Of a stretch of 64,000 bases of DNA, positions 37,676 through 54,932 are shown one piece after another. The position numbers were made by a program, and so were the translations under genes. The notes beneath the pieces are model-generated. The model was not told the origin of the DNA. It was given only the letters and a program-made list of their open reading frames with translations, and did not search any database. How positions within the stretch are numbered: position 1 is the stretch's first letter; every line of letters begins with the position of its first letter. The stretch is from Roseibium sp. Sym1 (lineage in GTDB: Bacteria; Pseudomonadota; Alphaproteobacteria; Rhizobiales; Stappiaceae). The DNA lies in contig NZ_CP114786.1 in the NCBI RefSeq assembly GCF_027359675.1, positions 1,864,501 to 1,928,500 on the forward strand, given 5' to 3'.

Positions 37676-37685
37676 AGGTCTTTCC

Positions 37686-39082: not shown

Positions 39083-39195
39083 GGAAACCTCCTCGGTTGA
39101 GGATTGTCTAGGCCCGCTGCTTCGGTTCGGCCAGTCAATTTGTTCGCATGTTGACATTTGTTCAAATAGAACTGAATTTTGTGCGCATGTTGAAC
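39083..39195. promoter_or_regulatory. pcaR-pcaI divergent operator region
   Basis: Two direct repeats GTTCGCATGTTGA (39142-39154) and GTGCGCATGTTGAAC (39181-39195) lie 39 bp apart, with an inverted repeat GTTC-AAATA-GAAC (39160-39172) between them. The second repeat covers the pcaR start codon. IclR-type PcaR regulators bind such sites near pca promoters, so activation of pcaIJF and autoregulation of pcaR are likely. Confidence 0.6.
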
Positions 39196-39948
39196 AAACC
39201 GACGGATCACATCGCTTCGCTCGCCAAGGGACTGAGGGTGATCGAGTGTTTCGGGGCCGACACCCCCCGTCTGTCGATATCCGATGTCGCCGACGCCACG
39301 GGGCTGGACCGGGCGACCGCGCGCCGCTGCCTGCTCACCCTTCATCACGAGGGGTATGCGGACTACGACGGCAAGTTCTTCACGTTGACGCCACGCGCGC
39401 TCCGGCTGGGTCTCGGGGCGCTCGCCTCGCTGCCGCTGCCGCAGGTGGTGCAGCCGTGGCTCGACCAGCTTACCGAGCAGATCTGCCAGTCCTGCTCGGT
39501 ATCGATCCTCGACGGCACGGAAATCGTCTATCTGGCGCGGGCCGCGCAGAAACGGGTGATGTCCATCGGACTGACGCCCGGCTCACGGCTGCCCGCGCAT
39601 TGCACGTCGATGGGCCGCGTGCTGCTGGCGGCGCTGCCGGAAGAAGAGGCCCGGGCACTCGTGGAGCGCTCGGACCTGACCCCGCGCACGGCGCTGAGCC
39701 TGACCGATCCGGACGAGATCATGAACCGTATCGGTGAAACGCGCACGCAAGGCTTTGCCGTCATCGATCAGGAAGTGGAGATCGGCCTCAGGTCGCTCGC
39801 CGTGCCGGTCTACGATAGCCGCGACCGGGTGGTGGCGGCGCTCAACACGGGCATGGCCGCCGCGCAGGCGAGCCTGGACGACCTCGTCGCCATCTACCTG
39901 CCGGCGCTCCTCAAGGTGCAGTCGGGCGTGCGGCGGGTGCTGCACTAG
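39187..39948 (+). CDS. pcaR: IclR-family regulator PcaR
   Basis: A 253-residue IclR protein, divergent from pcaIJF. The N-terminal winged HTH reads HIASLAKGLRVIECFGAD, LSISDVADATGLDRATARR. The effector domain has SCSVSILDGTEIVYLARA, RLPAHCTSMGRVLLAAL and GFAVIDQEVEIGLRSLAVPV, the PcaR/PcaU/PobR subgroup signatures. It probably senses 3-oxoadipate. ATG 39187 matches the usual N-terminus; an in-frame ATG at 39148 would add 13 residues inside the operator repeats. Neither start has a strong ribosome site. Confidence 0.9.
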   Translation: MLNKPTDHIASLAKGLRVIECFGADTPRLSISDVADATGLDRATARRCLLTLHHEGYADYDGKFFTLTPRALRLGLGALASLPLPQVVQPWLDQLTEQICQSCSVSILDGTEIVYLARAAQKRVMSIGLTPGSRLPAHCTSMGRVLLAALPEEEARALVERSDLTPRTALSLTDPDEIMNRIGETRTQGFAVIDQEVEIGLRSLAVPVYDSRDRVVAALNTGMAAAQASLDDLVAIYLPALLKVQSGVRRVLH

Positions 39949-39985
39949 GTCTTTCAGTCCTTGTCGTCCGGTTCCTGTTTGAGCA

Positions 39986-40258
39986 TTACGCTTTCCGGCG
40001 AGAGTTCGGGGCGGGCCGGCCAGCGAGTTCGACAGCAGCGTTGATGCGGATGCCCGTTATGCACAGCAGTTCGGCGATGATCTGCTGCTTGCTACTTTCA
40101 GGAAAGCCACCGCTGGTAATATCCATATTGGCTCCGATTAGCGCATGAGTGTTGATCAGAGCTCGGAGTTCAACCCACTGAAGCTGGATTTTTGATCCTA
40201 CCAAGGGGATCGCACTGGACTTCTCTAGACCTGAGAAACCGATGGATAATGCCTGCAT
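39986..40258 (-). CDS. Possible small hypothetical protein, 90 aa
   Basis: A 90-codon minus-strand frame with an ATG start and protein-like composition (amphipathic WVELRALINTHALIGAN). No family is recognised and the ribosome site is weak. It is divergent from the next weak frame at 40270. The segment has lower GC than the pca genes and may be a leftover of transferred DNA. Confidence 0.3.
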   Translation of the reverse strand: MQALSIGFSGLEKSSAIPLVGSKIQLQWVELRALINTHALIGANMDITSGGFPESSKQQIIAELLCITGIRINAAVELAGRPAPNSRRKA

Positions 40259-40269
40259 ATAGGCGGTAA

Positions 40270-40548
40270 ATGGATGGTTCGAACAGAGTTCCTGGACTTG
40301 TATTGGTTCTGACCCTTGCGGACTCCCGCGAAAATTTGGAGGTTTGGCGTAGACATTACTATGAGGATCAGCCTCGCTTTGCGATCAGAATCAATGTTCC
40401 GAATGCGCTGTATTATCCCAGTCATCTCCAGCCCGGAACCGTGATACTAGATGGAGAACTCCATGATCCTGTGGTTCCTACTTGGGGATTGGAGCACTGG
40501 TCAGGTAAGAACCTATTCATCGCGTCTCTAGTTGAGTGCTTCCGTTAA
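40270..40548 (+). CDS. Possible small hypothetical protein, 92 aa
   Basis: A 92-codon frame with ATG 40270 preceded by AGGCGG, a fair ribosome site. The product has aromatic and acidic residues (EVWRRHYYEDQPRF) and no known motif. It could be an orphan gene or chance. The rest of the interval 39949-40902 holds no other frame that I can support. Confidence 0.33.
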   Translation: MDGSNRVPGLVLVLTLADSRENLEVWRRHYYEDQPRFAIRINVPNALYYPSHLQPGTVILDGELHDPVVPTWGLEHWSGKNLFIASLVECFR

Positions 40549-40902
40549 TTCAATTCTATCTTAAGCGTAATGCACAAACTTCCCTCTCACCTCCCAGTTG
40601 ATCGTAGCTTATTGCTAAAAACATCTCATTCCAGAGAGCGAAGAATAGATGGAGAGATTTTTTTAAATTTGGTGCAGCAAGTTAGGCTAACCATACCACG
40701 TCCCGTAATTCCAGAAGGAAACGCTTATGGTGGCGTCCTTACGGCTTACACTGTGAACGTCGTCACAACTGCTTCAGATTCCAGTTAAGTTGATGGTTCG
40801 GCGCTGGAGCCGGTTGCTGAGTGCGTGCTCAGGGGCACTATAGATTTAGTTAGTTCTCTGATCGTTGACGACGCTAATATCTTTGAAAGGCTCTATGTGG
40901 CT

Positions 40903-41592
40903 ATGATTCCAGGTAAGAGACATATTGCGGTGCAGCATCCAGATCGCATTCCGCAGCTTATTATATTTGATTGCGATGGTGTGCTTGTGGATTCCGAAAC
41001 GATCTCCAATCGGCATCTTCATAGATTTCTGCTTTCACGCGGCGCTGACATATCCTTTTCCGAATGTTGCGACAGGTTCATAGGAAAAAGCAGGCATGAT
41101 GTCGAAAGGTATTTATCGGAACAAGGCTTGAAAGTGCCCGAAAATTGGTTGGTTCCGTTCTCGAAGGAATTGATAGCTTCGTTGAAGAGCGAAATAAAGC
41201 CAATTAAAGGTGCAAAAAAGGCGCTGAAAGTACTAAAGAATCATGAAGTAAAATTTTGCGTTGCTTCAAATGGATTGATGGAAAAGATGTGCGCAACGTT
41301 GGAGACAACGGGTATGCTTCCTTGGTTTGAAGGCAATATGTTCTCGGCGCATGAAGTTGGAGCAAGCAAGCCTGCCCCGGACGTGTTTCTCCACGCTGCG
41401 CAAGCAAATCGTATCCTGCCTGAGCATTGCCTGGTTGTAGAAGACAGCTCCAGTGGTTTTGAAGCCGCCGCAAGAGCGGGCATGTCGTGTCTCGCTTATG
41501 TGCCGAAAGAAACGAAGTCGACCCCAGATCTTTTCGGTGCACGGCAATTTGGCGACATGGCACTGTTGCCGTCCGAATTAGGGATCGCCTAA
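40903..41592 (+). CDS. HAD-superfamily subfamily IA hydrolase
   Basis: A 229-residue protein read from ATG 40903, so that motif I lies close to the N-terminus, as usual. Motif I is IIFDCDGVLVDSE with the nucleophilic Asp, motif II is FCVASNG, motif III is KPAPDVF and motif IV is CLVVEDSSSGFEAA. It is a phosphatase or phosphoglucomutase-like enzyme of the GmhB/PGP/beta-PGM type with a helical cap. Base composition is markedly AT-richer than its neighbours, suggesting separate acquisition. Substrate and link to the pca genes are unknown. The start choice is moderately sure. Confidence 0.85.
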   Translation: MIPGKRHIAVQHPDRIPQLIIFDCDGVLVDSETISNRHLHRFLLSRGADISFSECCDRFIGKSRHDVERYLSEQGLKVPENWLVPFSKELIASLKSEIKPIKGAKKALKVLKNHEVKFCVASNGLMEKMCATLETTGMLPWFEGNMFSAHEVGASKPAPDVFLHAAQANRILPEHCLVVEDSSSGFEAAARAGMSCLAYVPKETKSTPDLFGARQFGDMALLPSELGIA

Positions 41593-42301
41593 GTAATAAA
41601 TTAGATTTGTTCATAATTTTATTTCTTTGTCGCCAGTAAGCCTTTTTTTGATAAAGTATTAATGTCCTGCTTGTGAGATCGTCTTGCGGTTGAGAAAATT
41701 CGACATCAGTGGAAAAGCAAAAAGAGATATCGCCATCTTCATCTGAAGGGTCGGCATCCTCCTCAATCCGCTTGCCTCCAAGCCCGGTGCGCACGGCGCG
41801 TGCCACTGGCTCCGGATGGCCGAATTCCACTACGCTTCGTGTCTGAACGAAACCGGGAGATGTCAAGCTTGTGCCCTGTCAGACTTCTTAGGCGAAGGTA
41901 CCTGTCGGATAATTCATTCAACAAAGTCCCGGTGTCGTAATTACGCTTTTCAGTTATGATTCTGGCTGTTTCCCGCGAACGGGTTGGCATCGACCCACCA
42001 TCGAGTGGAGTTTTCGTCCGATGCTCCAATTTCCGGAAAATCCCTAAAATCTCCGTGCAAACCCAGGAAATCCGGGGGTCCGGACATAATTTAATACCGG
42101 CCTACACACCGGCCGCCTGCTCTTTTCATAAGGATAAGGTTATATATTTCTCGTTTCTCAATATTGGACAAACGCAGATCGCTTCGCCAGCGTGAGGCTG
42201 CCTTCAGTGCATAATGGAACACGCACCAGGCGGCGGGCCTGTGTCGGATCGCTGGGACCAACCCCGGGGAATTCGGCTTGGGTCATGGGGAGGAAAATAC
42301 A
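41593..42301. other. Intergenic region before the ABC operon
   Basis: About 700 bases with no supported gene; the minus-strand frame at 41763-42029 lacks any recognised family. An AT-rich stretch at about 42130-42160 (GGTTATATATT) could hold the operon promoter. GGGGAGGA at about 42286-42294 is the ribosome site for the TTG start at 42302. Confidence 0.4.
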
Positions 42302-43288
42302 TTGAAGTTTGACCGGAATGCCGTTCTGTCGCTGAATCAGGAACAGATGGTTATGGCCATCTCGGCGGTTCTGTTCGTCCTGTTTTCGATTTTTCTCGAT
42401 GGGTTTTTCCGGATATCGAACTTGCTCTCTCTTTTGCAGAGCGTCTCGATCCTGGGAATTCTGGCGATCGGAATGGCGGTCGTCGTGATCGGTCGCGGCA
42501 TCGACCTTACGATGGTCGCGGTGATGGTGTTCTCGACTGGCTGGAGCTTCACGCTTTTCTCCGGAGGAATGCAGGTGGAGACGGCCCTTCTTTTGGGTCT
42601 GCTGCTGGCGGTGGCCTTCGGCGCGGTCAACGGATTCCTGATCGCCTATGTCGAGATTCCGGCCATCTTCGCCACGCTTGCGATGGCGACCGTGATTTCC
42701 GGGCTGGGACGCTTTGCCCTTGTGTCGAGCGAGAACATCTTCATCAGCGGCGATGTGGGCTGGTTTGCGTCTCTCGGAACCGGTGCGCTCGCGGCGGTTC
42801 CCATGCCGGTTCTGCTGTTCCTCATCATCTCCTGTCTCGCGTTCGTGGCCTTGCGCCTGACGCGTTATGGCGCCTTCGTCTACGCGATCGGTGACAATCC
42901 GCTCGCTTCGCGCAACAGCGGAATGTCTATCCGGCCCATGACGGTCCTGATGTACAGCTTCGCATCCCTCGTCGCTTTCTGCGCGGGCCTGATCATGGCG
43001 ATGACCGTGTCATCGGTAAACACCAAGCTGGCCAGCTCGACGATGATCTACGACATCATCCTGGTCGTGGTGATCGGAGGGATCGGTCTGGCGGGCGGCA
43101 AGGGCAGTATCCGGAATGTCATTTCGGGCACGGTTCTCATCGGACTGCTGTTGAACGGTCTGACGATCATGAACGTGGATTATTCGGCTCAAAATATCAT
43201 CAAGAGTCTGATCTTGCTGCTGGCCATCATCGTGGACTCGCTGCTCAACCCCCGCGACGAACAGACATCGCAGCAAGGCGACATCTAG
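42302..43288 (+). CDS. ABC transporter permease, sugar (RbsC) type
   Basis: A 328-residue permease starting at TTG 42302, which is placed 8-9 nt after a GGGGAGGA ribosome site. It has about nine to ten membrane helices. The ILAIGMAVVVIGRGIDLTMV segment and the GDNPLASRNSGMS cytoplasmic loop, which contacts the ATPase, are typical of the ribose/xylose/autoinducer-2 family. It would form the membrane channel together with the permease domain at 44443. It is first in a six-gene operon ending at 50137. Confidence 0.9.
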   Translation: MKFDRNAVLSLNQEQMVMAISAVLFVLFSIFLDGFFRISNLLSLLQSVSILGILAIGMAVVVIGRGIDLTMVAVMVFSTGWSFTLFSGGMQVETALLLGLLLAVAFGAVNGFLIAYVEIPAIFATLAMATVISGLGRFALVSSENIFISGDVGWFASLGTGALAAVPMPVLLFLIISCLAFVALRLTRYGAFVYAIGDNPLASRNSGMSIRPMTVLMYSFASLVAFCAGLIMAMTVSSVNTKLASSTMIYDIILVVVIGGIGLAGGKGSIRNVISGTVLIGLLLNGLTIMNVDYSAQNIIKSLILLLAIIVDSLLNPRDEQTSQQGDI

Positions 43289-43348
43289 AATTCCGGGTGG
43301 TCCAGACGGGCGATCCGGAAAAAGAACCACATTTCTAGGGAGGAAGAC

Positions 43349-44374
43349 ATGAAACTTTCTATGTTCAAGAGGATAGGTGCGGTCGCAGCCGTAATGCTGG
43401 GTGTCCTAGGTCAGGTCGCGCCGGCCTCGGCGGAGCGCCCGGATGACGGCCTGATCCTGAAGTACCAGAAGGCGTTTGAGGGCAAGACCGTCGCTTTCGT
43501 TCCGGTCACGATGGGATGGGACCTGACACAAGGCTGGATGGCCGCAGTGCAGCGGGATGCCGATAGGCTTGGCTACGAGCTGACGATCAGGGATGCCAAC
43601 TATAGCGTCGATGCAGGCGCACAGGCTATCTCGCAACTTATCAACGAGAAGCCGGACATAATAATAATTCAGAACGCAGACATGCAGGCCTACGTCAAGC
43701 TTATCCGACGCGCAATGGACGCCGGCATCAACGTCATCCAGATGAACATGAAGACACCGGTCAACTCGGATGCTTTCGTCGGAGGAGACTGGTATGGCGT
43801 GGGCGTGGAAACCGCGAAAGAAGCGGCCCGTCTTTGTGGTTCTGGAACATCCGGAAAAATTGCCCTGATTCAGGGCCCGGTGACCGCACCGCCCAACCAG
43901 CTCGGCGTTGCCGGGGTCGAAGATACCTTGGTGGATTACCCGGATGCGACACTTGTGGCCACTCAGGCCGCGGATTGGGATGCCTCGAAAGCGCATTCCA
44001 TCGCCTCCACGATCATCAAGCAGCACGACGATTTGTGCGGCTTTATCGGGCTGTGGGACAACATGGACGTGGGAATTGCCGCGGCCATCCGGGAATCCGG
44101 CAAGCAGGACCAAATCAAACTTGTCTCGACTGGCGGCGGAAACAAGGATCTCGGCTGCACCAATGTCGAAAGCGGGGCGTTCTCGTCGTATGTGAAGGTC
44201 GATACGCGCGATCAGGCCAAGGTGCTTGCCTCCGCGATCCAGATGTTGTTGCAGACGCAGCCGGAACCCGGCACGCAGCCCTTTGCCGTCTATACAGAGA
44301 ACCAGATCCTGACACCGGATACGGTAGCTCCGACGTCCTGCTGGACCGTTGACCAGATCAAACTCGGCAACTGA
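43349..44374 (+). CDS. ABC transporter substrate-binding protein (periplasmic)
   Basis: A 341-residue type I periplasmic binding protein. The signal peptide ends at about residue 28 (VAPASA before ERPDDG). The mature part has KTVAFVPVTMGWDLTQGW, then QLINEKPDIIIIQNADMQA and GFIGLWDNMDVGIAAAIRESG, the pattern of Peripla_BP_4 proteins. The ligand is likely a sugar, polyol or related small molecule; the sequence does not fix it. GGGAGGA precedes ATG 43349. Confidence 0.9.
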   Translation: MKLSMFKRIGAVAAVMLGVLGQVAPASAERPDDGLILKYQKAFEGKTVAFVPVTMGWDLTQGWMAAVQRDADRLGYELTIRDANYSVDAGAQAISQLINEKPDIIIIQNADMQAYVKLIRRAMDAGINVIQMNMKTPVNSDAFVGGDWYGVGVETAKEAARLCGSGTSGKIALIQGPVTAPPNQLGVAGVEDTLVDYPDATLVATQAADWDASKAHSIASTIIKQHDDLCGFIGLWDNMDVGIAAAIRESGKQDQIKLVSTGGGNKDLGCTNVESGAFSSYVKVDTRDQAKVLASAIQMLLQTQPEPGTQPFAVYTENQILTPDTVAPTSCWTVDQIKLGN

Positions 44375-44442
44375 TCTCCAGGCACGGGCGATCGACCTAT
44401 CTGGCGACGATCGTCCGAAGCCAAAACCCCCGGAGTATACGT

Positions 44443-46572
44443 ATGAGTGCGCGCGAAGCCTATTTGCGCTGGCGATATCGCTTGTTTCCCGACCACGTCA
44501 TGGGCGAGATCCTGTCGAAGAACTGGATCGACAATGCGATCCCGTTCATGTTCCTTGCCATCGCCGTCGCCGTCTTTTCCTTCATCATCCCGAACTTCCT
44601 GGCGATAGGAAGCCTCGGCACGATGGGCGAACTCCTGGCGGAATATCTGTTCGTCGCCATCGGTATGACGCTGGTTCTGAAAGCCGGCGGCATCGATCTC
44701 AGCGTCGGATCGGTCTTCGCCCTGTGCAATTTCTGCGCGCTTTATCTGGTCAATGCCCTGGGAATGCCGCTGATCGTCGTCATCCCGGCCGTTCTGGCAC
44801 TTGGCGGTCTCGTCGGGGCGTTGAACGGAGTCCTCGTCGGATTCCTCGGGCTTCGCGCGTTTCTGACCACCTTGGTCACGCTCATCCTCGTACGCGCCAT
44901 AGTGGAGCTGCTGTCCCTGAACTACGGTGTCGATGCCTCTTACTCGGAAACGCCGGTGCCAATGTGGGACTATCTGGGCTCAGCCCGGATCCTGGGAATG
45001 CCGCTCTCGCTGTTCGTTGCCGTCATTGTGGCGATCCTGACCCATATATTGATGACTCGCATGCGGTTCGGCTGGCATCTGAGCGCTGTCGGCGGGTCGC
45101 GCCGTTCCGCCTACAATATCGGCCTGCCGGTCAAGTGGATCGTGGCCCAGACCTACATCCTGTCGGGGGTCTTCACAGCGGCAGCCGCCTTGTTCTATGC
45201 CTCGCGACTCGGCAGCATAGGCGGCTCCGTCGGCGTCGGGCTGGAGATTGTTATCCTGACTGCCGCGGTCCTCGGAGGTAACAGTCTGGGCGGCGGGCGC
45301 GGGTCGGTCGCGAAGGCGATTATCGGAACCGTCATAGTGGTCATGGTCACCAATGCCTTGGTGCGCATGGGCTTGCGCACCGGCGCCGGCGACCTCGTGT
45401 TGGGTCTCATTCTGCTCGTGGCCGTGGCCATAGACGTGAAGTGGATGAAGAACCGCCTCAAGATCCTCAATCGCGCTTATGTCTCACCCACCTATTTTGC
45501 CCTGCCGCCGTGCCCGCCCACCGCCGAAGGGTCCGGTTCGCCCTATGAGGTCAACAACAAGCTCGCCTCTGCGCAACCGATCGGCAAGGGGGAGCTCGAC
45601 GGGCCCGAGGACATCATCCTCGACGAGGACGACAATCTTTACTGCGGCAGCCGGCATGGCGACATCATCCGGTTCTTTGCGCCCGACTACCAACGACATG
45701 AGGTCTACGTACATATCGGCGGCCATCCGTTGGGAATGGCGTTCAACCGGGACCGGGAACTTGTCGTCTGTGTCGGCGGGATGGGGCTCTACAAGGTTAC
45801 GAAGGATCGCAAGCCCGTAAAGCTCTCGGACGAGACGAACCGGTCCATGTTTTCGATCATCGACGACTCGCGCATGCGGCTCGCCGACGATCTCGACATC
45901 GCGCCGGACGGCCGGATCTTCTTTTCGGAAGCCACGATCCGCTACGAGATTCACGACTGGGTGCTCGACGCACTGGAATCGCGGGGCAATGGCCGCATCA
46001 TTTGCTACGACCCGCGTGACGGGTCATCGCGCACTATTTTGCCCAAGCTGCAGTTTCCAAACGGAATCACGATGGCGGGTGACGGCGAATCCTTCCTCTT
46101 CGCGGAGACCTGGGGCTGTCGGATCAGCCGATACTGGTTCGACGGCCCCCGCAAGGGACAAAGAGAAGTCGTGATACCGGATCTTCCAGGTTACCCCGAC
46201 AATATCAACAAGGCCTCCGACGGCACCTTCTGGTGCGCCATCATCGGCATGAGATCGCCCACCTTCGACCTCGCCCAGCGAATGCCGCAGCTCCGCCGGC
46301 GCATGGTCTACCGCGTGGCAAGCGACGAATGGATGTATCCGAACATGAATTCAGGATGCGTCTTCAAATTCGATCTGACCGGTCAGGTGCTCGACGTGCT
46401 CTGGGATCGCGACGGCATCAAGCATCCTTCGATCACGTCGATCCGGGAGCACAAGGGACGTCTGTTCCTGGGAGGGCTCTTCAACGACCGGATCGGTGTC
46501 TACGACATTCCCGGAGCCGACATGGAATGGACAGGCATCAGCCATTACTGGGGAGGCAAGTCCGGTGAGTAA
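44443..46572 (+). CDS. ABC permease fused to strictosidine-synthase-like beta-propeller
   Basis: A single 709-residue frame with two domains. Residues 1 to about 345 are an RbsC-type permease with around ten helices, the loop VLKAGGIDLSVGSVFALC and the ATPase-contact loop GGSRRSAYNIGLPV. After a short Pro-rich linker, residues about 365-709 form a six-bladed propeller of the strictosidine synthase/SMP-30 type: ADDLDIAPDGRIFFSEAT, FPNGITMAGDG, RISRYWFDGPRKGQ and LPGYPDNINKASDGTFWCAI. Such propellers are lactonases or related calcium-dependent hydrolases. In RbsC-like permeases the C-terminus is cytoplasmic, so the propeller would face the cytoplasm (inference). No stop or frameshift separates the domains, so I read it as a real fusion. 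Confidence 0.88.
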   Translation: MSAREAYLRWRYRLFPDHVMGEILSKNWIDNAIPFMFLAIAVAVFSFIIPNFLAIGSLGTMGELLAEYLFVAIGMTLVLKAGGIDLSVGSVFALCNFCALYLVNALGMPLIVVIPAVLALGGLVGALNGVLVGFLGLRAFLTTLVTLILVRAIVELLSLNYGVDASYSETPVPMWDYLGSARILGMPLSLFVAVIVAILTHILMTRMRFGWHLSAVGGSRRSAYNIGLPVKWIVAQTYILSGVFTAAAALFYASRLGSIGGSVGVGLEIVILTAAVLGGNSLGGGRGSVAKAIIGTVIVVMVTNALVRMGLRTGAGDLVLGLILLVAVAIDVKWMKNRLKILNRAYVSPTYFALPPCPPTAEGSGSPYEVNNKLASAQPIGKGELDGPEDIILDEDDNLYCGSRHGDIIRFFAPDYQRHEVYVHIGGHPLGMAFNRDRELVVCVGGMGLYKVTKDRKPVKLSDETNRSMFSIIDDSRMRLADDLDIAPDGRIFFSEATIRYEIHDWVLDALESRGNGRIICYDPRDGSSRTILPKLQFPNGITMAGDGESFLFAETWGCRISRYWFDGPRKGQREVVIPDLPGYPDNINKASDGTFWCAIIGMRSPTFDLAQRMPQLRRRMVYRVASDEWMYPNMNSGCVFKFDLTGQVLDVLWDRDGIKHPSITSIREHKGRLFLGGLFNDRIGVYDIPGADMEWTGISHYWGGKSGE

Positions 46573-47644
46573 CCTCTTTGCCCGTATGTTCGACCGCTTC
46601 CGCGGCAGCGGCAGCGCCGCCATCACCCTGCCACCGATGGACGGGGCATTGCGTCCCAACACCCGCATCGATGAAGCCGAGGAAATGGCCGCCGTGACGG
46701 CTCCGGACAATATCGCGTTAGGAACGGATGGCATCCTGCTGTCGTCCGGCGCCCGGTTGCTGGGCCTGAGCCCATCGAAAACCATCGATACTCTCTGGAC
46801 GGCGTCAAGCGACATCGTGTGTCTGGCGGCTCATCCGTCGGGCATGCTGGCCCTGGGGCTTGACGAGGGGCGTCTCGTCATCCGGGGCGGAGCGCATGAC
46901 GGACGCGAGTTCACCAAACTGGGAGATCTGCCCATCGTGTCCCCTTCCGCCCTTGCCTTTGCCGATGACAATACCCTGTTCGTCTGTCTGGGCAGCCAGG
47001 ATCACGGAATGAGCGACTGGAAGGTCGATCTGATGACACACAGCGCCAGCGGGTCTGTCTGGAAAATCGACCTTGGCAGTGGCGCAGCGGCCTGTATGGC
47101 GCAAGAACTCGCTTTCCCATATGGCGTCCACGTGACCGAAAACGGCAATATCGTCGTTTCGGAAAGCTGGCGTCATCGCCTGCTGCGGATCTCGCCGGAT
47201 GGGAAAATCGGGGTCGTTGTCGATGAACTGCCGGGGTATCCGGCACGCATGGCACACGAGCGCGAGGGCGGAGACTTTTGGCTTTCAATCTTTGCTCCGC
47301 GCACGCAACTTATCGAATTCGTCCTGCGCGAAGACGAATACCGTCGTCGCATGGTGGATACGATCGACCCTGAATACTGGATCGCGCCCTCCCTGCATCA
47401 CCCGCAGTCCTATCTCGAGCCCATGCAGGGCGGCAGCCTCAAGCAGCTCGGGGAACTCAAGCCCTGGGCGCCATCGCGATCGCTGGGGATTGCGGTGCGT
47501 CTGGATGGCAACGGGCATCCCGTCGAGAGCCTGCACTCCCGAGCGGACGGAGTGCGTCACGGCGTCACCAGTTGCCTCCCCACCGGCGATGGCCTGCTGA
47601 TGACGTGCAGGGGTGGCGATATCGTCGTGCGAGCGAAGATATAG
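46565..47644 (+). CDS. Second strictosidine-synthase/SMP-30-like propeller protein
   Basis: A 359-residue protein starting at GTG 46565, with GGGGAGG ten nt before it; it overlaps the fusion gene by 8 nt. Propeller motifs are ELAFPYGVHVTENGNIVVSE, RLLRISPDGKIGVVVDELPGYPARMA and GGDFWLSIFAP. There is no signal peptide, so it is probably cytoplasmic. It is a diverged paralogue of the propeller fused to the upstream permease and may act with it or form a hetero-pair. Catalysis is inferred; metal-binding residues were not verified. Confidence 0.82.
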   Translation: MSNLFARMFDRFRGSGSAAITLPPMDGALRPNTRIDEAEEMAAVTAPDNIALGTDGILLSSGARLLGLSPSKTIDTLWTASSDIVCLAAHPSGMLALGLDEGRLVIRGGAHDGREFTKLGDLPIVSPSALAFADDNTLFVCLGSQDHGMSDWKVDLMTHSASGSVWKIDLGSGAAACMAQELAFPYGVHVTENGNIVVSESWRHRLLRISPDGKIGVVVDELPGYPARMAHEREGGDFWLSIFAPRTQLIEFVLREDEYRRRMVDTIDPEYWIAPSLHHPQSYLEPMQGGSLKQLGELKPWAPSRSLGIAVRLDGNGHPVESLHSRADGVRHGVTSCLPTGDGLLMTCRGGDIVVRAKI

Positions 47645-47654
47645 GGAGAGGATC

Positions 47655-49157
47655 ATGGAGACATCCAAACTGATCGAAATGCGGTCCGTGACCAAGGAGT
47701 ATCGCGGGGTTGCAGCGGTCCGAAACGTCGATTTCACGCTCATGCCCGGTGAGGTTCACGCCCTCTTGGGCGAGAACGGGGCGGGCAAGTCCACATTGAC
47801 GAAGATGATGGCGGGGGTCACCCAACTGACCGAGGGCATGATGCTGCTCGACGGCCGGCCGGTTACCTTTATGACGCCCGGCGAAGCCTTGTCGCATGGT
47901 GTGGCCATGGTGTTTCAGGAAACCAGCCTCGTTCCCAGCATGACGGTCGCCCAGAACCTCTTCCTGGGCGAGGAGAAACTCTTCAACCGTCTTCGCGGCA
48001 TCTACATCAGCGCCCAGCAGTTCATGCAATCGCTGAACTTCCAGGTGAACCCCTGGGCCGATGTCGGGACGCTCGGCGCCGCCCAGAAGCAGATGGTGGA
48101 GATCGCAAGGGCGGTGCGGCAGAACGCCCGGGTGATCATTTTCGACGAGCCCACGGCCACGCTCACGCCCGAGGAAAAGCGGCATTTCTTTGCGCTGGTC
48201 AAGGACCTCAGGCAGCGGGGTGTCGCGGTGATCTTTATCAGTCACGCCCTCGAGGAGGCGCTGAGCATCGCCGATCGGATCACCGTTCTCAGGGATGGTG
48301 AACTGGTGGTGAGCGATACCGTCGACAAGTTCGACCGGGAAAAGATCGTTCAGGCCATGGTGGGCCGCACCTTGTCGGACGATCTTTATCACAGCCACGG
48401 GGAAGACAAGATCCGCCGGCCGGGCCGGAAAATCCTGTCGGTGCAGAACCTCTCCATGTCGCGGGTCGTCAAGAACACGTCGTTTTCGATCTATGGCGGC
48501 CAGGTGACCGGCATATTCGGCCTGATCGGCTCCGGGCGCACCGAAGCCGCCAAGGTGATCTCCGGCATCTACAAGCGCGACTTCTTTCATGGCGGCGAGG
48601 TCAGGCTCGAGAACAAGCCCATTCGCTACCGGACCCCGCGCCCGGCCGTACAGGATGGAATCGTCTATGTGACCGAAGATCGAAAGGTCGAGGGGTTCTA
48701 TGAAAGCATGTCGATCGCCGACAACATTCATCGTGCTGCACAGGCTGCCAATGTCAGTTCGAGCCTCTTCCTCAACTATTCCGAGATCAAGGAGATGGCC
48801 GCCGAATGGACGCGGAAACTCAACATCAGGGCCATCAATTCCAATGCGCGCGTCATCGAGCTGTCTGGGGGTAATCAGCAGAAGGTCGTGATCGCGCGGT
48901 CGCTGGTTCAGAAGCCGAAGGTGATCTTCTTCGATGAGCCGACGCGCGGCGTCGACGTGGGGGCGATCTCGGAAATCCACCATCTGATCAATACGCTGGC
49001 AGAAGAAGGAATCGCCGTCGTGGTAATCTCGTCTTACCTACCTGAAATCATGAATATATCCGACCGCATCCTCGTTTGCCGGGCCGGGCGTATCGTCGAA
49101 GAATTCACACCCGAAGATGCCACAGAGGAACGCATCATGTATGCGGCGGTGCACTGA
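47655..49157 (+). CDS. Sugar-type ABC transporter ATP-binding protein (two NBDs)
   Basis: A 500-residue duplicated ATPase starting at ATG 47655 after GGAGAGG. Domain 1 has Walker A GENGAGKST (39-47), a non-standard signature LGAAQKQMVEIARAV and Walker B VIIFDEPTATLT. Domain 2 has the degenerate Walker A GLIGSGRTEAAKV, a standard signature LSGGNQQKVVIAR and Walker B VIFFDEPTRGVD. This asymmetry is normal for RbsA/MglA-type ATPases. It energises the permease pair encoded upstream. Confidence 0.93.
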   Translation: METSKLIEMRSVTKEYRGVAAVRNVDFTLMPGEVHALLGENGAGKSTLTKMMAGVTQLTEGMMLLDGRPVTFMTPGEALSHGVAMVFQETSLVPSMTVAQNLFLGEEKLFNRLRGIYISAQQFMQSLNFQVNPWADVGTLGAAQKQMVEIARAVRQNARVIIFDEPTATLTPEEKRHFFALVKDLRQRGVAVIFISHALEEALSIADRITVLRDGELVVSDTVDKFDREKIVQAMVGRTLSDDLYHSHGEDKIRRPGRKILSVQNLSMSRVVKNTSFSIYGGQVTGIFGLIGSGRTEAAKVISGIYKRDFFHGGEVRLENKPIRYRTPRPAVQDGIVYVTEDRKVEGFYESMSIADNIHRAAQAANVSSSLFLNYSEIKEMAAEWTRKLNIRAINSNARVIELSGGNQQKVVIARSLVQKPKVIFFDEPTRGVDVGAISEIHHLINTLAEEGIAVVVISSYLPEIMNISDRILVCRAGRIVEEFTPEDATEERIMYAAVH

Positions 49158-50137
49158 TGGCCGGGAGGATTGCTTCTGCGCCGCCTTCGGGTGGTCGCGT
49201 CTGCGTTGTCGGTGCGGGTTTCATGGGGTGCGTGATCGCAACGCTTTATGCGCGCCACGGCTATGACGTGGTCATCTGCGACAGTCAGGCAGCCATGCTC
49301 GAAAGTTATGCCGAACGTGCGCGGCCCATCGCTGCAAGCTTTTCCGATGACAGCACCGAAGTCGAGGCGATGGTGAACCGCGTCGCCACCGTGTCGTCCC
49401 TGAAGGATGCGGTTGCCGGCGCCTTCATGGTGCATGAGGCGGTGCAGGAGGTGCTTGAGACGAAGCAGGCTGTCTTCGAGGAACTGGATCGGCTGTGTCC
49501 GCCGGATGTTGTCCTGGCCTCGAACACCTCCTCGTTTCTCATTTCCGACATCGCCGAAGGTGTCTCCAGTCGTGAGCGTGTTCTCGGAATTCACTATATC
49601 ACGCCGGGCCACATCATCCCGGTGATTGAGATCATCCACAGCAGCTTCACTCCGCCCGAGCTGATCGACTGGGCGCGCGCGTTTATCCATTCCATCGATC
49701 ATGTGGGGGTGGCCTGTCCCGAACGGCCCGGCTTTCTGATTAACAAGATCCAGTTCGCGATGCTGACCGAAGTCTACCGGCTAGTCGACGAGGGTCTTGC
49801 CAGCCGCGATGATATCGACGCTGCCGTGCGCCTGAGCCTCGGGCCCCGGCTTGCCCTTTGGGGACCGCTATTGACGGAGGATCTGATCGTTTCGAAGAAA
49901 ACCGCCCTGGCGGTGACGGATTCTCTTTACGAGCAGACGGGTGACGAAAACTACAAGGGGCGAAAGGCGCTTCGGGACTTGGTGGAGCGGGGCGATCTCG
50001 GCCTCATGACGGGGCAGGGTTGGTATGCATTCGAGGGTGATCGGAGCGAGACCATCATGGAACGCGACCGGCAGCTTACGGCACTTTTCGACTGGCTGCG
50101 CGAAGCCAACGCCGTCGACCGCCTCAAGGTAGAGTAG
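49157..50137 (+). CDS. 3-hydroxyacyl-CoA dehydrogenase-family enzyme (L-gulonate/carnitine dehydrogenase-like)
   Basis: A 326-residue NAD-dependent dehydrogenase; its ATG lies in the stop of the ATPase gene (TGATG). The Rossmann motif is GAGFMG (residues 19-24). ASNTSSFLISDIA and ERPGFLINKIQFAMLTE are family signatures. The active-site region reads GIHYITPGHIIPVIEII instead of the HFFNP motif common in hydroxybutyryl-CoA enzymes. That change, the single-domain length and the transporter context fit the lambda-crystallin/L-gulonate or carnitine dehydrogenase branch. With lactonase-like propellers upstream, oxidation of a sugar acid is a reasonable guess. Confidence 0.82.
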   Translation: MAGRIASAPPSGGRVCVVGAGFMGCVIATLYARHGYDVVICDSQAAMLESYAERARPIAASFSDDSTEVEAMVNRVATVSSLKDAVAGAFMVHEAVQEVLETKQAVFEELDRLCPPDVVLASNTSSFLISDIAEGVSSRERVLGIHYITPGHIIPVIEIIHSSFTPPELIDWARAFIHSIDHVGVACPERPGFLINKIQFAMLTEVYRLVDEGLASRDDIDAAVRLSLGPRLALWGPLLTEDLIVSKKTALAVTDSLYEQTGDENYKGRKALRDLVERGDLGLMTGQGWYAFEGDRSETIMERDRQLTALFDWLREANAVDRLKVE

Positions 50138-50329
50138 CGCATGTTTCCTGCTCCTCCCATGAGCTGGAGACGCAGATCATGGTGCAGATAACTCTGCACC
50201 ATTTGACCGGATCTCCTTTTGTCCGCCGACGAGGCGGATTGCGCTTGTCGGGGTGGTGTATCGGGCAAGCGGCGCAACGTTGCCGAAGGGCTGCCTGCCA
50301 ACATCAAATGATTAATTCCTGACCGAGAC

Positions 50330-51820
50330 CTAGCGCATGACGAATGGATTGCTAATCTCAGTACTATAGGAAAGCCAAACCGATTTGGTTTCAAGATAGG
50401 GATCGATGGCCTCAATCCCGTTCTCGCGGCCAAGACCCGACGTTTTTAAGCCGCCAAACGGCATGAGGAAACTGGCGGCACGATATGTATTTACCCAAAC
50501 AGTTCCCGCCTGCAGACGTTTGGGCGCAACGGTCGCGCGTTTAATACTGCTTGTCCAAACGCCGGCTGCCAGACCATAGGCGGTGTCATTTGCCAATTGA
50601 TAAGCTTCGTCGTCATTCTTGAATGGGATGACCGACACCACAGGACCAAATACTTCCTCCTGTGCAATACGCATCTTGTTGTCCACATCGGCGAAAACCG
50701 TCGGCTCGACGAACCAACCGTTCCCGCATTCCGGACGCTCGGCTGGAGCACCGCCCAAGGCGCATCTCGCACCTTCGGATTTGGCAATATCGATATAAGA
50801 GAGAATCCGTTCGTATTGTGGCCTTGTCGTCACCGGACCGACTTGGGTTGTCAGGTCCATTGGATCACCCATCCTCGTTTTTTTTGCGAGCCCTACAAAT
50901 CTTTCCAGATAATCGTCATAGATGCTTTCATGTACGAGCAGGCGAGAACCCGCGATGCAGGTTTGTCCCGTGGCCGCGAAAATTCCCGCGATTCCACCCG
51001 CGACAGCCGCCTCCAGATCCGTATCGGGAAAGACAATCTGCGCTGATTTTCCGCCCAGTTCCAACGTTAATCTTTTGAAGGTCGGAGCGGCATTCTGCAT
51101 TATCTTCTGGCCTGCCAGTTCGCCACCCGTGAACGCGACCTTTGAAATTTTCGGATGCGAGGTCAACGGATCTCCGACATCCTGCCCAAACCCCGTAATG
51201 ATATTGATCACCCCCTCCGGGAATCCCGCCTCTTTAACCAGGGCGGCGAATTCAAGCGCTGAAGCCGACGTGTGCTCTGATGGTTTGATCACTAGCGTGC
51301 AGCCTGCGGCCAAAGCCGGAGCCAGCTTCCACATCATCAGCATGAGCGGCGAATTCCACGGTACGATTGCCGCAACGACGCCCACCGGCTCGCGAAGCGT
51401 GTATGCAAACATATCCGGCTTATCGATCGGAACCACCGCCCCGTTGATCTTGTCGGCCAGCCCGCCATAAAAATACAGCCACTGGGGAATATAGCGGATC
51501 TGACCACCTACCTCTGCCAAAAGCTTTCCGTTGTCGCGAACTTCCACCGCTGAAAGATGATCGGCGTCGCGTTCAACAAGACCGGCGAGTTTTCTCATCA
51601 ATGCTCCGCGCTCGGTCGGAGACATCTTACCCCAGACCCCGGCGTAAAGTGCACAATGCGCAGCTTCGATGGCATCGTTGACATCGCGTTCGTCACAACG
51701 CGGAATTTCCGCCCACGGTTCTCCGGAATACGGATTATAGCTCAGAAAGGTTTCCTTTGACGCGCTGTCACGCCAGCTGTTACCAATAAACATTCGATAT
51801 TTCTTGAGTTCATCTTTCAT
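50330..51820 (-). CDS. NAD(P)-dependent aldehyde dehydrogenase
   Basis: A 496-residue ALDH, full length. Catalytic Cys288 is in ATGQTCIAGSR, general base Glu254 in LELGGKSAQIVF and oxyanion Asn156 in PWNSPLM. It oxidises an aldehyde to an acid; the substrate is not predictable. It is the last gene of a minus-strand operon adh-dctPQM-aldh, so it probably oxidises the aldehyde that the upstream alcohol dehydrogenase produces from the compound imported by the TRAP system. It is convergent with the ABC operon across 190 bp. Confidence 0.93.
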   Translation of the reverse strand: MKDELKKYRMFIGNSWRDSASKETFLSYNPYSGEPWAEIPRCDERDVNDAIEAAHCALYAGVWGKMSPTERGALMRKLAGLVERDADHLSAVEVRDNGKLLAEVGGQIRYIPQWLYFYGGLADKINGAVVPIDKPDMFAYTLREPVGVVAAIVPWNSPLMLMMWKLAPALAAGCTLVIKPSEHTSASALEFAALVKEAGFPEGVINIITGFGQDVGDPLTSHPKISKVAFTGGELAGQKIMQNAAPTFKRLTLELGGKSAQIVFPDTDLEAAVAGGIAGIFAATGQTCIAGSRLLVHESIYDDYLERFVGLAKKTRMGDPMDLTTQVGPVTTRPQYERILSYIDIAKSEGARCALGGAPAERPECGNGWFVEPTVFADVDNKMRIAQEEVFGPVVSVIPFKNDDEAYQLANDTAYGLAAGVWTSSIKRATVAPKRLQAGTVWVNTYRAASFLMPFGGLKTSGLGRENGIEAIDPYLETKSVWLSYSTEISNPFVMR

Positions 51821-51943
51821 TTCTGTCTCCCGGCATACCCGTCATGTTTCGCAAGAAAGCTCAAACCGGGCGTGACGATTTCACCGTCATCTCAACCGGT
51901 TGTCATGCCGTGGTTTAAATCTCGGCATTCGTTCCGGATCGGA

Positions 51944-53254
51944 TCAGAGCATTGATGGCAAAAAAGTCGTCAACCCTGGAACCAACGCAAGAATCACCAT
52001 GCCAATCACGAACAACCCGACAAAAGGCCAGGCCGCAGCAAACACCGATGACAGGGATCCTTCGTTCCAGGCGCTCTTTAGGGCGAAAAGGGTGTAACCG
52101 AATGGCGGGGTTATGCCGCCGACGGTGATGTTCACCAAAAACAGGAGCCAGAACCAGATCGGATCATATTCGAACCTGTCGATGATCGGCAGGTAGATCG
52201 GGATCACGATAAGCATCAGCGCGATCTGGTCGATAAACATGCACAGTATAAATGGCAGGAGCATCAGCATGAAGAGCATGAACCATGACGATACCTGCAA
52301 TTCGACGATCCACTGCGTCAGGGCCGAAGCCCCTCCCGAAAATGCAAGCAGTTGGCTGAACAGCTTGGAACTTGCCATGATGATGAGGATCATGGCCGAG
52401 ATCTTGGCTGACTCTCCTACCGCCTCCACGACCATTCGAATGCTGAGGTTCCGGTAAATGGCAGCGGTCATCAGCGAGCCCAACACCCCCATTGCTCCCG
52501 CTTCGGTCGGTGTGGCGACGCCCATCAGGATCAGCCCCATCACCAGTGCGATAATAATTGTGAACGGCAGAAGTTTTATAAGCGCCGTCGCCGCCTCAAG
52601 GAGACTGGGTCGGCTTTTAGCATCCTCATCCACAGGGGCGAGTGCCGGATTGCGCCAAATTCTGATGAACACGTAGGCCGCAAATAGCAAAGAGAAAACC
52701 AGCCCCGGAATAATCCCGGCAATAAGGAGACCTGCGATGGACACACCGGCCAGGGTGCCGATTATGATGACCAGCACACTGGGCGGTATCAGCGGCGCGA
52801 GGCTGGCTCCCGCGAGGATCGTGCCGATAGAAAGACGCGCGTCATACCCCCTGGAAACCATGCCCGGCAACAAAGAACGACCGAGCATTGCCGCAACGCC
52901 CATGGCGGCCCCTGACAATGTGCTGAAGACTGTGGCGAGCACTATGGACAAAATAAACTGCCGGCCGCGGACGCGCCCAACCAGCGTATCGATCGACTGG
53001 AAAAGAACCTCGACGGCTCTGCTCCTGAAAAGCAACTCGCCCATAAGAATGAATAACGGGATCGTCACCAGGGAGGAACTGGTCGCCGTTTCGAAGAAAC
53101 TACCCGAGAACATGCCGAAACCTGCCGGTCCCAACAGCAGCATCGAAGCCCCGAGATTGACAACGAGAAAAGCCACGAAGACCGGCATGCCGCTGCCCAT
53201 CGCCAGCAATAGCAGTCCCACGCCAACCAGAACAGCTGGAATTCCCTCGATCAT
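51944..53254 (-). CDS. dctM: TRAP transporter large permease DctM
   Basis: A 436-residue membrane protein of about 12 helices, starting at ATG 53254 inside the dctQ end (ATGA-type overlap). Signatures are SLVTIPLFILMGELLF, GASLAPLIPPSVLVIIIG and VGGITPPFGYTLFALKS. It carries the sodium-coupled transport cycle. A longer frame with upstream starts overlaps dctQ and was rejected. DctM plus DctQ plus DctP make a complete tripartite importer. Confidence 0.93.
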   Translation of the reverse strand: MIEGIPAVLVGVGLLLLAMGSGMPVFVAFLVVNLGASMLLLGPAGFGMFSGSFFETATSSSLVTIPLFILMGELLFRSRAVEVLFQSIDTLVGRVRGRQFILSIVLATVFSTLSGAAMGVAAMLGRSLLPGMVSRGYDARLSIGTILAGASLAPLIPPSVLVIIIGTLAGVSIAGLLIAGIIPGLVFSLLFAAYVFIRIWRNPALAPVDEDAKSRPSLLEAATALIKLLPFTIIIALVMGLILMGVATPTEAGAMGVLGSLMTAAIYRNLSIRMVVEAVGESAKISAMILIIMASSKLFSQLLAFSGGASALTQWIVELQVSSWFMLFMLMLLPFILCMFIDQIALMLIVIPIYLPIIDRFEYDPIWFWLLFLVNITVGGITPPFGYTLFALKSAWNEGSLSSVFAAAWPFVGLFVIGMVILALVPGLTTFLPSML

Positions 53255-53775
53255 TGGAACTGCCCCTTTGAGCCTTGAAAGCTTTGCCCGAACGCCATGC
53301 GCAGAAAACTCAGGCCGGTATTCAACATGCCCAGGAAAACAAATGAGAATAAGATCCATTTTGGAAACTGGATTGTTGTGAGCGTGACGGTCCCCCGCAT
53401 GTACAATCGTTGGGTTTCACCAAAGAAAATATACGCTGTCCAAAGACAAACCCCGGCACCGACGAGAAAACCGAACCTTCGCAATATCCTGGCTTTGCGT
53501 TCGTCGAGCACGTCAAGAAATATAGAAACCGAAACGTTCCCATGGATTCGGGTGACATGGGGAATGACAAGAAAAACGGAAATCAGCAGAAGAAAAGAGA
53601 CTGAATCGCTTGCCCATTTTGTCGGTGCGCCCAGGAAATATCGCATCACGACTTCATAGGCAAAAATCGCAACGATAACAGCGAGTGCCATAGATCCGAG
53701 TTGGTAGCCGATACTGATAGTAACGTCGTGAAGGCGCAAAAGCGTCCTGAACGAACGGTGGAACAAAGCCCTCAT
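53251..53775 (-). CDS. dctQ: TRAP transporter small permease DctQ
   Basis: A 174-residue four-helix membrane protein from ATG 53775. The motif YEVVMRYFLGAPTKWASDSVSF is the conserved DctQ segment (given here in part as RYFLGAPTKWASD). It overlaps dctM by 4 nt. It forms the scaffold of the TRAP importer. Confidence 0.9.
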   Translation of the reverse strand: MRALFHRSFRTLLRLHDVTISIGYQLGSMALAVIVAIFAYEVVMRYFLGAPTKWASDSVSFLLLISVFLVIPHVTRIHGNVSVSIFLDVLDERKARILRRFGFLVGAGVCLWTAYIFFGETQRLYMRGTVTLTTIQFPKWILFSFVFLGMLNTGLSFLRMAFGQSFQGSKGQFQ

Positions 53776-53838
53776 CCCTGACTCCGTTGTTAGCGTGAAA
53801 GATGGTTGCCCCAGAGGGGCAACCATCTGCATCTGCGG

Positions 53839-54816
53839 TCAGTCTGAGATATTGGCTTTGTTTGCCATGGTCCGAATTTCGGCAATCGCTTCGGGGTTGA
53901 CGGTACTCGCCAACTCCGTCACGCCGTTGAACCAGGCGCTTTTGAGCGTGGCCGCAAATTCGGGCTGGAAATCGGTGGCTTCCATTCCTTCGGCGATCAG
54001 CATCTCCATTTCGGTCGTCGCAAGACCATCGAAAATTGTCGAGCTTTCTTTCTCATAAGCCAGTGCCGCAGCCTCGATCTCAGCTTTGGTTGTTTCATCG
54101 AGGCTGTTCCATGTATCGAGATTCATCAAAAGCATATGGCTGACTTGGCCAAAGGTCGGCCGCACGAAGTAATCGGCAACCTCGAACCAGCGATAGTTCA
54201 CCGCGCCGACGGTCGGCCATGCGGCACCATCGACTACCCCACGTTCGAGTGCGGGGTAGATTTCCGGCCCAGGCAGAACAACCGGAGAGCCGCCGAGTTT
54301 CTCGATCACGGGATGATAAAGTGGAGTTCCCCGGATGCGACGGCCATTCAGTGCGTCTTCACCCAGAGGCTCTTTCAGGAGCATGTGGAAGCCGTTGCGA
54401 TCATAGAACACGGCGATCAGTTTCAGTCCGACTTTCTGGTATTCTTGGTCGGCGAAATCCCAAATGCCGGAGTCATGAAGTTCTTCGCTGGAACCGCTTA
54501 ATGCGTCTAAAGACATACCAACGGCAATATCGTTGTAGTGATATCCTCCATTTGTATAGAGCATATTGAATACGCCTTGCGCGACCGGATTGAACTGTTC
54601 GAAAGGCGGTACCGTTTCGGGACCAAACCTGGATAAGTTCAGATTTTCGGTGGTCTCGTTTTCGAGATACTCCATAAATGGCATCAAAACCTCACCGACG
54701 GCGGCATAGCTCTGATCCCAGCTTGAAAGGATTTTCAAATCGGCCGCCATCGCATGGTTCGTCGCGACATGTGGCAGTACAATTGACGCGACAAGGCCGT
54801 ATATTATGTTTTTCAT
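53839..54816 (-). CDS. dctP: TRAP transporter substrate-binding protein DctP
   Basis: A 325-residue periplasmic protein. The signal peptide ends at about residue 24 (NHAMA before ADLKILSSW). The DctP fold is seen in LNGRRIRGTPLYHPVIEKLGGSPVVL, with the conserved Arg that binds the carboxylate of the ligand, and in ALERGVVDGAAWPTVG (both quoted in short form: RRIRGTPLYHPVIEKLGG, ALERGVVDGAAW). An organic acid ligand is likely. It is the second gene of the operon after the alcohol dehydrogenase. Confidence 0.92.
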   Translation of the reverse strand: MKNIIYGLVASIVLPHVATNHAMAADLKILSSWDQSYAAVGEVLMPFMEYLENETTENLNLSRFGPETVPPFEQFNPVAQGVFNMLYTNGGYHYNDIAVGMSLDALSGSSEELHDSGIWDFADQEYQKVGLKLIAVFYDRNGFHMLLKEPLGEDALNGRRIRGTPLYHPVIEKLGGSPVVLPGPEIYPALERGVVDGAAWPTVGAVNYRWFEVADYFVRPTFGQVSHMLLMNLDTWNSLDETTKAEIEAAALAYEKESSTIFDGLATTEMEMLIAEGMEATDFQPEFAATLKSAWFNGVTELASTVNPEAIAEIRTMANKANISD

Positions 54817-54932
54817 CTGCGTTCCTCCTGTTTTATTTTAAGCACATGGCTGATGGATACTTTGCCCCCAAAGAACCGACCGAATACAACTCCCGAATTC
54901 GGTTTGGTTCTCGTCTCGATCCATTCGGTTCC

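Follow-up and report, generated by a model that had tools for sequence, protein, structure and literature searches.

What does a beta-propeller do when it forms one chain with a permease of an ATP-binding cassette (ABC) importer? The question is raised by a locus of Roseibium sp. Sym1 (Alphaproteobacteria, Rhizobiales, Stappiaceae; assembly GCF_027359675.1, contig NZ_CP114786.1, positions 1,864,501 to 1,928,500 of the forward strand); this whole stretch of 64,000 nucleotides is referred to here as the window. The locus holds a module of five genes, named PERM, SBP (substrate-binding protein), FUS, PROP2 and ATP, of which FUS encodes the fused chain. We consider the chances about even that the module is a CUT2/RbsC-type importer in which one permease subunit carries a cytoplasmic metal hydrolase of the N6P superfamily that opens a lactone or an ester on entry, with PROP2 as its pseudoenzyme partner. 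The five genes and the parts of FUS are the following.

42278..43288, plus strand: PERM, first permease subunit, CUT2/RbsC type, 336 aa (PF02653, 5.8e-24)
43349..44374, plus strand: SBP, periplasmic substrate-binding protein, 341 aa (PF13407, 1.3e-39)
44443..46572, plus strand: FUS, permease and strictosidine-synthase-like propeller in one chain, 709 aa (open reading frame, Pfam, relatives, model)
44521..45468, plus strand: FUS permease part, residues 27-342, ten predicted membrane segments (model, charge pattern)
45469..45537, plus strand: FUS linker, residues 343-365, predicted cytoplasmic (model, charge pattern)
45538..46569, plus strand: FUS propeller, residues 366-709 (Pfam, model, fold searches)
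46565..47644, plus strand: PROP2, second, unfused propeller, 359 aa, GTG start (open reading frame, model, alignment)
47655..49157, plus strand: ATP, tandem ATP-binding cassettes (PF00005, two stretches)

The fused frame and its recurrence

The FUS frame (44443-46572, plus strand) contains no stop over 709 codons, and its Pfam matches all lie above the curated cut-offs: BPD_transp_2 at residues 68-327, SSL_N at 367-411, Str_synth at 482-568 and SGL at 396-602. A reading made from the sequence only had described one uninterrupted permease-propeller frame and a paralogous propeller starting 8 nt before its stop. Both claims are confirmed, the former by the open reading frame (ORF), by Pfam and by the recurrence of the joined frame in 82 ORFs of 80 loci, window included. 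For the latter, the PROP2 GTG at 46565 and the FUS stop at 46572 give the genes an overlap of exactly 8 nt, and hhalign matches the two propellers as homologues over 308 columns with a probability of 99.8. A longer PROP2 ORF from 46496 represents a mechanical upstream start; the N-termini of most of 12 relatives begin at the 46565 position. PERM is listed with a TTG, and its exact start is provisional. The ATP ORF is listed from a GTG at 47613, while the ATG at 47655, preceded by a ribosome-binding-like sequence, is the likelier start. By Pfam, the locus has the components of a CUT2/RbsC importer, namely BPD_transp_2 permeases, a Peripla_BP_4 binding protein and a double ABC_tran ATPase; among the matches listed (for the ATPase, 25 of 190 models), all CUT2 equivalog models scored below cut-off for the module proteins.

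A protein search with FUS retained 4098 of 8000 scored candidates. Among these, the 120 relatives listed cover 97-100% of the query at 61-94% identity and have the same Pfam architecture. The 80 loci kept from a scan of named genomes belong mainly to alpha- and betaproteobacteria, with one metagenome-assembled genome labelled Terriglobia; Pantoea, a gammaproteobacterium, was added by plasmid records. Whole-genome scans, each counting the own genome, detected FUS in 7/86 genomes of the family, 51/397 of the order (19/141 genera, 56 places, E <= 1e-150) and 11/398 across the phylum. The end region of the FUS query is reached by 55 of the 56 places in the order, and the remaining one (G632) stops at residue 580. 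Since the cut-off of the order scan would hide unfused genes, the question of unfused relatives rests on the family and phylum scans, which used E <= 1e-60 and scored up to 13 and up to 2 candidates per genome, respectively. All places in the family (7/7) and 15 of 18 in the phylum are fused. The three unfused places are two stand-alone propellers (39-40% identity) and one fusion of a permease to an ATPase (37%). One of the 15 fused phylum places, G470:C59:84415-86526, is a FUS copy with an in-frame TGA.

A permease-only search yielded 859 matches, of which 120 were listed and the ends of 15 inspected. Most of these ends were ragged or ran into the linker, as in fragments or frameshifts; four proteins (P0243, P0244, P0245 and P0257) end at or just past the last helix and are candidate true split genes. 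An assembly or frameshift artefact, or a fusion restricted to one genome, is ruled out by recurrence in many genomes. The sequence-only reading had proposed to look for the fusion in independent genomes, and there it recurs in frame; the case that would have spoken against it, separate genes in close relatives, was not encountered among the places scored in the family. The patchy distribution of FUS is consistent with horizontal transfer. As a side observation, one locus (L095, from genome G080, which bears the name of a different genus within the family) is 99.5% identical in DNA to window positions 37218-57196 over 13 kb and 96.9% identical over a further 6.9 kb, compared with 87.9% over 7.9 kb for L011; either the region was transferred recently, or G080 is a very close strain that is labelled differently.

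The module recurs together with the fusion. As clustered, 66 of the 82 FUS ORFs in the 80 loci, window included, are flanked by PERM and SBP on the upstream side and by ATP on the downstream side; contig ends and clustering misses are among the causes for the remaining ORFs. The PERM cluster was found in 75 of 81 loci. FUS is followed by PROP2 in 83 of its 86 copies; in the remaining three, a contig end is within 152 nt. Across the phylum sample, matches to PROP2 stronger than 1e-50 were confined to the 11 FUS genomes, with weak matches (1e-11 to 1e-14) in six others. As a control, 20 other CUT2 loci (14.5-19 kb) were taken from 13 genomes that carry FUS, and none of them matched the propeller of FUS or PROP2 (tblastn, E <= 1e-10). 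The best permease-only match of the phylum scan, L091 (37% identity), resembles the module in gene order, PERM-SBP-permease/ATPase. It differs in that its CUT2 permease is fused directly to a tandem-cassette ATPase in one 846-aa frame (L091:2433-4973, minus strand), and no propeller match was found at that locus. From this gene order, the propeller pair sits in a slot between the second permease and the ATPase.

The predicted metal site and the placement of the propellers

The model of FUS has a mean predicted local distance difference test score (pLDDT) of 82.3 over the whole chain, and its C-terminal part is a propeller, which model and fold searches agree is six-bladed. In PDB structure searches with FUS, the matches were filled by the propeller. 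Foldseek ranked strictosidine synthase at the top; the closest solved relative by sequence, TGW6 (8kg3), tied for the top by fold. Hydrolases of the N6P superfamily are characterized by four conserved metal ligands (PMC4215206). Ligands were counted in two alignments, of 82 FUS ORFs and of 121 sequences, with equivalence to PON1 assigned by sequence alignment or motif. So judged, the FUS propeller has a complete N6P/PON1-type ligand set in 121 of 121 sequences.

45607..45609, plus strand: E389, putative metal ligand 1, PON1 E53 by alignment and motif (82/82, 121/121)
45886..45888, plus strand: D482, putative metal ligand 2, PON1 N168, here Asp (82/82, 121/121)
46060..46062, plus strand: N540, putative metal ligand 3, PON1 N224 (82/82, 121/121)
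46198..46203, plus strand: D586-N587, putative metal ligands 4/5, PON1 D269-N270 (D586 81/82, N587 82/82; both 121/121)
46423..46425, plus strand: H661, near-invariant His of blade 6 (81/82, 121/121)
47246..47248, plus strand: R228 of PROP2, invariant (71/71), at the place of FUS N587

Fold and metal ligands are shared by FUS with the N6P superfamily (strictosidine-synthase-like proteins, SMP30/gluconolactonase, DFPase, PON1, the RPA3624 lactonase, XylC). In contrast to plant strictosidine synthases, which have a metal-free active site, the FUS propeller keeps its ligands; and unlike the N6P members, which are not transporter parts, it sits on an importer subunit with a dead-site paralogue beside it. 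One further position, residue 428, appears to depend on context, being R in 17/17 sequences of the acyl-CoA-synthetase group, S/A in 11/11 of the ADH group and H in 4/4 of the HMGR (HMG-CoA, 3-hydroxy-3-methylglutaryl-CoA, reductase) group; this is suggestive only, with rows L012, L026, L043, L055 and L074 labelled by clade and not by their own neighbours.

PROP2 was also modelled as a propeller (mean pLDDT 85.5), and its Pfam Str_synth score of 23.7 bits is just below the cut-off of 25. Across 71 aligned sequences it lacks the four-ligand set. The first place is D48 in all 71, the second Ser/Thr in 67 and the third Y in 43 and N in 16, while the fourth is A in 50, S in 15 and G in 6, and never Asp. 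The search for a metal site in both propellers, as the earlier reading had proposed, thus succeeded for FUS and failed for PROP2, which was rejected as another lactonase or metal hydrolase of the N6P type; it may have an unrelated activity. R228, H324, R326 and H332 are invariant in PROP2, and its N-terminus has a conserved helix that looks amphipathic.

The charge pattern and ten predicted segments place both termini of the FUS permease inside. Of the parts predicted to be inner, the N-terminus has a mean Lys+Arg per segment of 4.41, the C-linker of 2.59, and loops 133-140 and 205-231 of 1.95 and 5.33, respectively; the first three predicted outer loops have 0.05-0.28. No signal peptide was seen in PROP2, where a 19-aa stretch scoring above 1.6 close to the start of the protein occurs in 1 of 71 sequences. 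Because of the C-in pattern and the missing signal peptide, both propellers are predicted to be cytoplasmic.

Co-variation and catabolic neighbourhoods

Pairwise distances were compared at the 60 of 81 loci where all five genes were clustered, the other 21 being dropped for a short contig or an unclustered gene. Mean pairwise identity was higher for the FUS propeller (0.665) than for the FUS permease half (0.557). The distance matrix of the FUS propeller correlated best with that of SBP (0.82), compared with 0.72 for the permease half of its own chain. With the PERM/ATP background removed, the partial correlation with SBP was 0.63 (partial Mantel p 0.001). In 1000 bootstraps, the SBP-propeller correlation exceeded SBP-permease in 99.6% and exceeded SBP-PROP2 and SBP-ATP in all. 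PROP2 distances, in turn, followed the permease half (0.76) more closely than SBP (0.62). A structural PROP2 and a cargo-handling FUS propeller fit these distances, which do not in themselves prove catalysis.

We next consider enzymes acting on CoA esters, a class that includes acyl-CoA ligases and CoA transferases as well as hydratases, thiolases and acyl-CoA dehydrogenases. Representatives were annotated, and some assignments were made by eye on the first residues of the proteins. Within a 19-kb window they were found at 41 of 52 FUS loci and at 4 of the 20 control CUT2 loci, a contrast of approximate size; the count left out 29 of 81 loci, with a contig too short or a gene unclustered. With 5-kb flanks, the count was 42 of 56 FUS loci. 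A first control set (L100-L127, 0/28 with such an enzyme) was replaced, as its loci of ~3.9 kb each were not comparable. On a quick tree of FUS, the contexts are clade-bound (16 changes, compared with a shuffled mean of 43.2), and yet they cross bacterial families; cassettes therefore seem to travel with their pathways.

Some contexts hint at a substrate. HMG-CoA reductase and HMG-CoA-lyase-like genes occur in one FUS clade (L030, L033, L047 and L048); in Shinella sp. HZN7 a degradative HMG-CoA reductase abuts PERM, and in genomes G140 and G672 the reductase precedes FUS by a few kb, in the same orientation and on one contig with it. The idea that this reductase is a general partner was rejected, as it belongs to one clade of the tree. 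Just upstream of PERM in L023 and L077 are proteins with a motif that we take to be the Baeyer-Villiger fingerprint, and L024 has a relative. The HMG-CoA reductase branch (mevalonate/mevalonolactone) and the two Baeyer-Villiger branches suit lactones. Separately, at L096 (plasmid pPAT9B04 of Pantoea sp. At-9b) the module comes after a gene cluster with a dihydroxyacetone kinase and a triose-phosphate-isomerase-family protein, apparently for the breakdown of polyols; a D-arabinono-1,4-lactone oxidase is encoded farther along.

In the window, the module is followed by these genes.

49157..50137, plus strand: 3-hydroxyacyl-CoA-dehydrogenase-like enzyme, next operon gene (PF02737/PF00725)
50330..51820, minus strand: aldehyde dehydrogenase, divergent (PF00171)
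51944..54816, minus strand: tripartite ATP-independent periplasmic (TRAP) transporter genes (DctM, DctP Pfam), comprising a large permease (51944-53359, Pfam), a candidate small ORF (53251-53832) and a binding protein (53839-54816, Pfam)

The dehydrogenase-like enzyme, whose best NCBIfam score of 191 bits is below cut-off, also directly follows the module in L011 and L057. It and the aldehyde dehydrogenase, which in L011 is on the same strand as the module, are probable catabolic partners, the former outside the module core. TRAP genes lie close to the module in the sub-clade of the window, with relatives in L011, L012 and L013. On the other side, two serial genes (37686-38363 and 38363-39157, minus strand) resemble CoA-transferase subunits by eye, and a PcaR/PcaU/PobR-family regulator (39148-39948, TIGR02431 above cut-off) is divergent from this pair (region 37686-39948).

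Weighing the readings

In the reading to which we gave about even chances, SBP would hand over a lactone or ester of small size, or else a hydroxy acid already partly lactonised. PERM and FUS would form the channel, powered by the double-cassette ATPase, and the emerging compound would reach the tethered metal site (E389, D482, N540, D586/N587). There it would be cut to a hydroxy acid unable to leak back, so that an opened lactone would be trapped as the acid, which would then pass to the CoA-forming or dehydrogenase enzymes encoded alongside. PROP2, with its metal site lost and its invariant Arg/His set, probably pairs with the FUS propeller as a non-catalytic lid or a subunit binding the product or an anion.

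Several observations weigh against this reading. The enzymatic activity of the FUS propeller is a prediction throughout, and its ligand equivalence comes from sequences and not from coordinates. Many propeller motifs are near-invariant despite varied catabolic neighbours, which would suit a shared chemical group but also a shared non-catalytic role. For most neighbourhoods, with their acyl-CoA ligases and CoA transferases, acids would suffice and no lactone is required. HMG-CoA reductase adjoins FUS in only 2 of 43 reductase-positive genomes of the order (listed FUS; two candidates scored per genome), Baeyer-Villiger monooxygenases (BVMOs) occur at only 3 of 80 loci, and the window neighbours (dehydrogenase-like enzyme, aldehyde dehydrogenase, TRAP) point to no lactone pathway or substrate. 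The reference set of the CoA-enzyme count was drawn from FUS loci, and loci share descent. As for topology, the last third of the permease gives only a weak charge signal: the predicted outer loops 255-268 and 307-316 have mean Lys+Arg of 1.10 and 1.01, against 1.04 in the predicted inner loop 276-290. Inner loop 79-89 has 0.05. The C-terminus proposed to lie inside is thus favored by the first two thirds of the permease and only weakly by the last. A propeller at the inner mouth of the channel, also part of the sequence-only reading, is not supported, as the model leaves the placement of the domain relative to the channel loose (predicted template-modelling score 0.66). Finally, the nearest stand-alone propeller, L092 (39-40% identity class), has an apparent N-terminal membrane anchor by eye, and relatives like it may act outside the cytoplasm.

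Four other explanations have to be set beside this one. The FUS propeller could be a metal hydrolase for an ester conjugate (acyl-sugar, aryl or alkyl ester), releasing an acid for the neighbouring ligases and CoA transferases. Such acid-activating enzymes are indeed frequent near the module, TGW6 is presumably an indole-3-acetic acid-glucose hydrolase, and sugars are the usual ligands of CUT2 binding proteins, in keeping with a sugar ester. However, the HMG-CoA reductase and BVMO neighbours indicate lactones in three branches, and glycoside or sugar-ester enzymes number 0 among 40 annotated neighbour proteins (many neighbours lie outside that set). We regard this explanation as rather unlikely. 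We find it unlikely, too, that both propellers work without turnover, as a cytoplasmic regulatory lid that gates the transporter on sensing the cargo or its product, as regulatory C-terminal domains do on other ABC importers. The near-constant pairing of the propellers, one with a dead site, the many motifs invariant across contexts, and a PROP2 that tracks the permease more than SBP (partial correlation 0.35 vs 0.23) would all be expected of such a lid; a complete metal-ligand set in 121/121 sequences is hard to explain without catalysis, and the FUS propeller tracks SBP.

It is very improbable that an ordinary hydrolase is tethered merely for one-to-one production, with no channelling and a free enzyme equally good. 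Fusions without obvious coupling do exist in the superfamily, as in a superoxide dismutase (SOD)-lactonase (PMC12362111), but the linker is short (343-365) and no close unfused relative was found at E <= 1e-60 in the family and phylum scans, the unfused places being 37-40% identical; the four permease-length proteins could still be split genes. A propeller on the periplasmic side, acting on the substrate ahead of uptake, has hardly any probability. The apparent anchor of L092 and the weak last third of the charge pattern lean that way, against a positive N-terminus, loops 133-140 and 205-231 and a C-linker that give C-in over ten segments, and a partner PROP2 in which no signal peptide was seen.

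Known systems resemble the module in part. Like CUT2 sugar importers (RbsABC/AraFGH-type), it has two BPD_transp_2 permeases, a periplasmic SBP and a tandem-cassette ATPase; unlike them, it has a propeller-extended permease, an extra propeller subunit and CoA-acid enzymes near most loci. In the mycobacterial ABC importer IrtAB, a fused siderophore-interaction reductase domain reduces the siderophore on import (PMC10246721). The likeness, an importer subunit with a cargo-modifying enzyme domain, is one of principle only, as IrtAB has an exporter fold, reductive FAD chemistry and no propeller, in contrast to the BPD_transp_2 and propeller of FUS. To our knowledge, IrtAB operates without a binding protein. 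DrSOD joins a Cu/Zn-SOD to a calcium beta-propeller lactonase and is a natural fusion with an N6P-type lactonase domain whose partner is a dismutase and not a transporter (PMC12362111). Importer-enzyme coupling thus has a precedent in IrtAB and N6P lactonase fusion in DrSOD, and the FUS module is neither. Among the matches listed in the literature searched, no description of a permease-propeller fusion was found; one paper on ABC permeases and a gluconolactonase proved unrelated to the fusion.

A bolder form of the lactone or ester importer is vectorial hydrolysis, which we put forward tentatively, as somewhat short of an even chance. The permease would itself be a metallo-hydrolase, with import and ring-opening or ester cleavage as one coupled step, similar to group translocation by the phosphotransferase system. 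The pseudo-hydrolase PROP2 would hold the anionic product by its Arg/His cluster and control release or gating. The five genes would be a re-targetable cassette, in which SBP and propeller change together relative to the permeases, PROP2 and ATPase, spread between classes for many lactones and esters.

Database entries for such proteins carry names such as 'ribose transport system permease protein' and 'SMP-30/gluconolactonase/LRE family protein'. If an importer with a built-in hydrolase is what they form, many proteins under these names would belong to one kind of lactone/ester uptake-and-cleavage machine, and the sugar labels on such entries would be misleading. The co-variation of propeller and SBP offers a handle for reading the substrate from sequence. 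The module would be a clear case of an ATP-driven, SBP-dependent importer with a built-in enzyme for its own cargo, and would make it testable whether a first enzyme tethered to the channel drives uptake by trapping.

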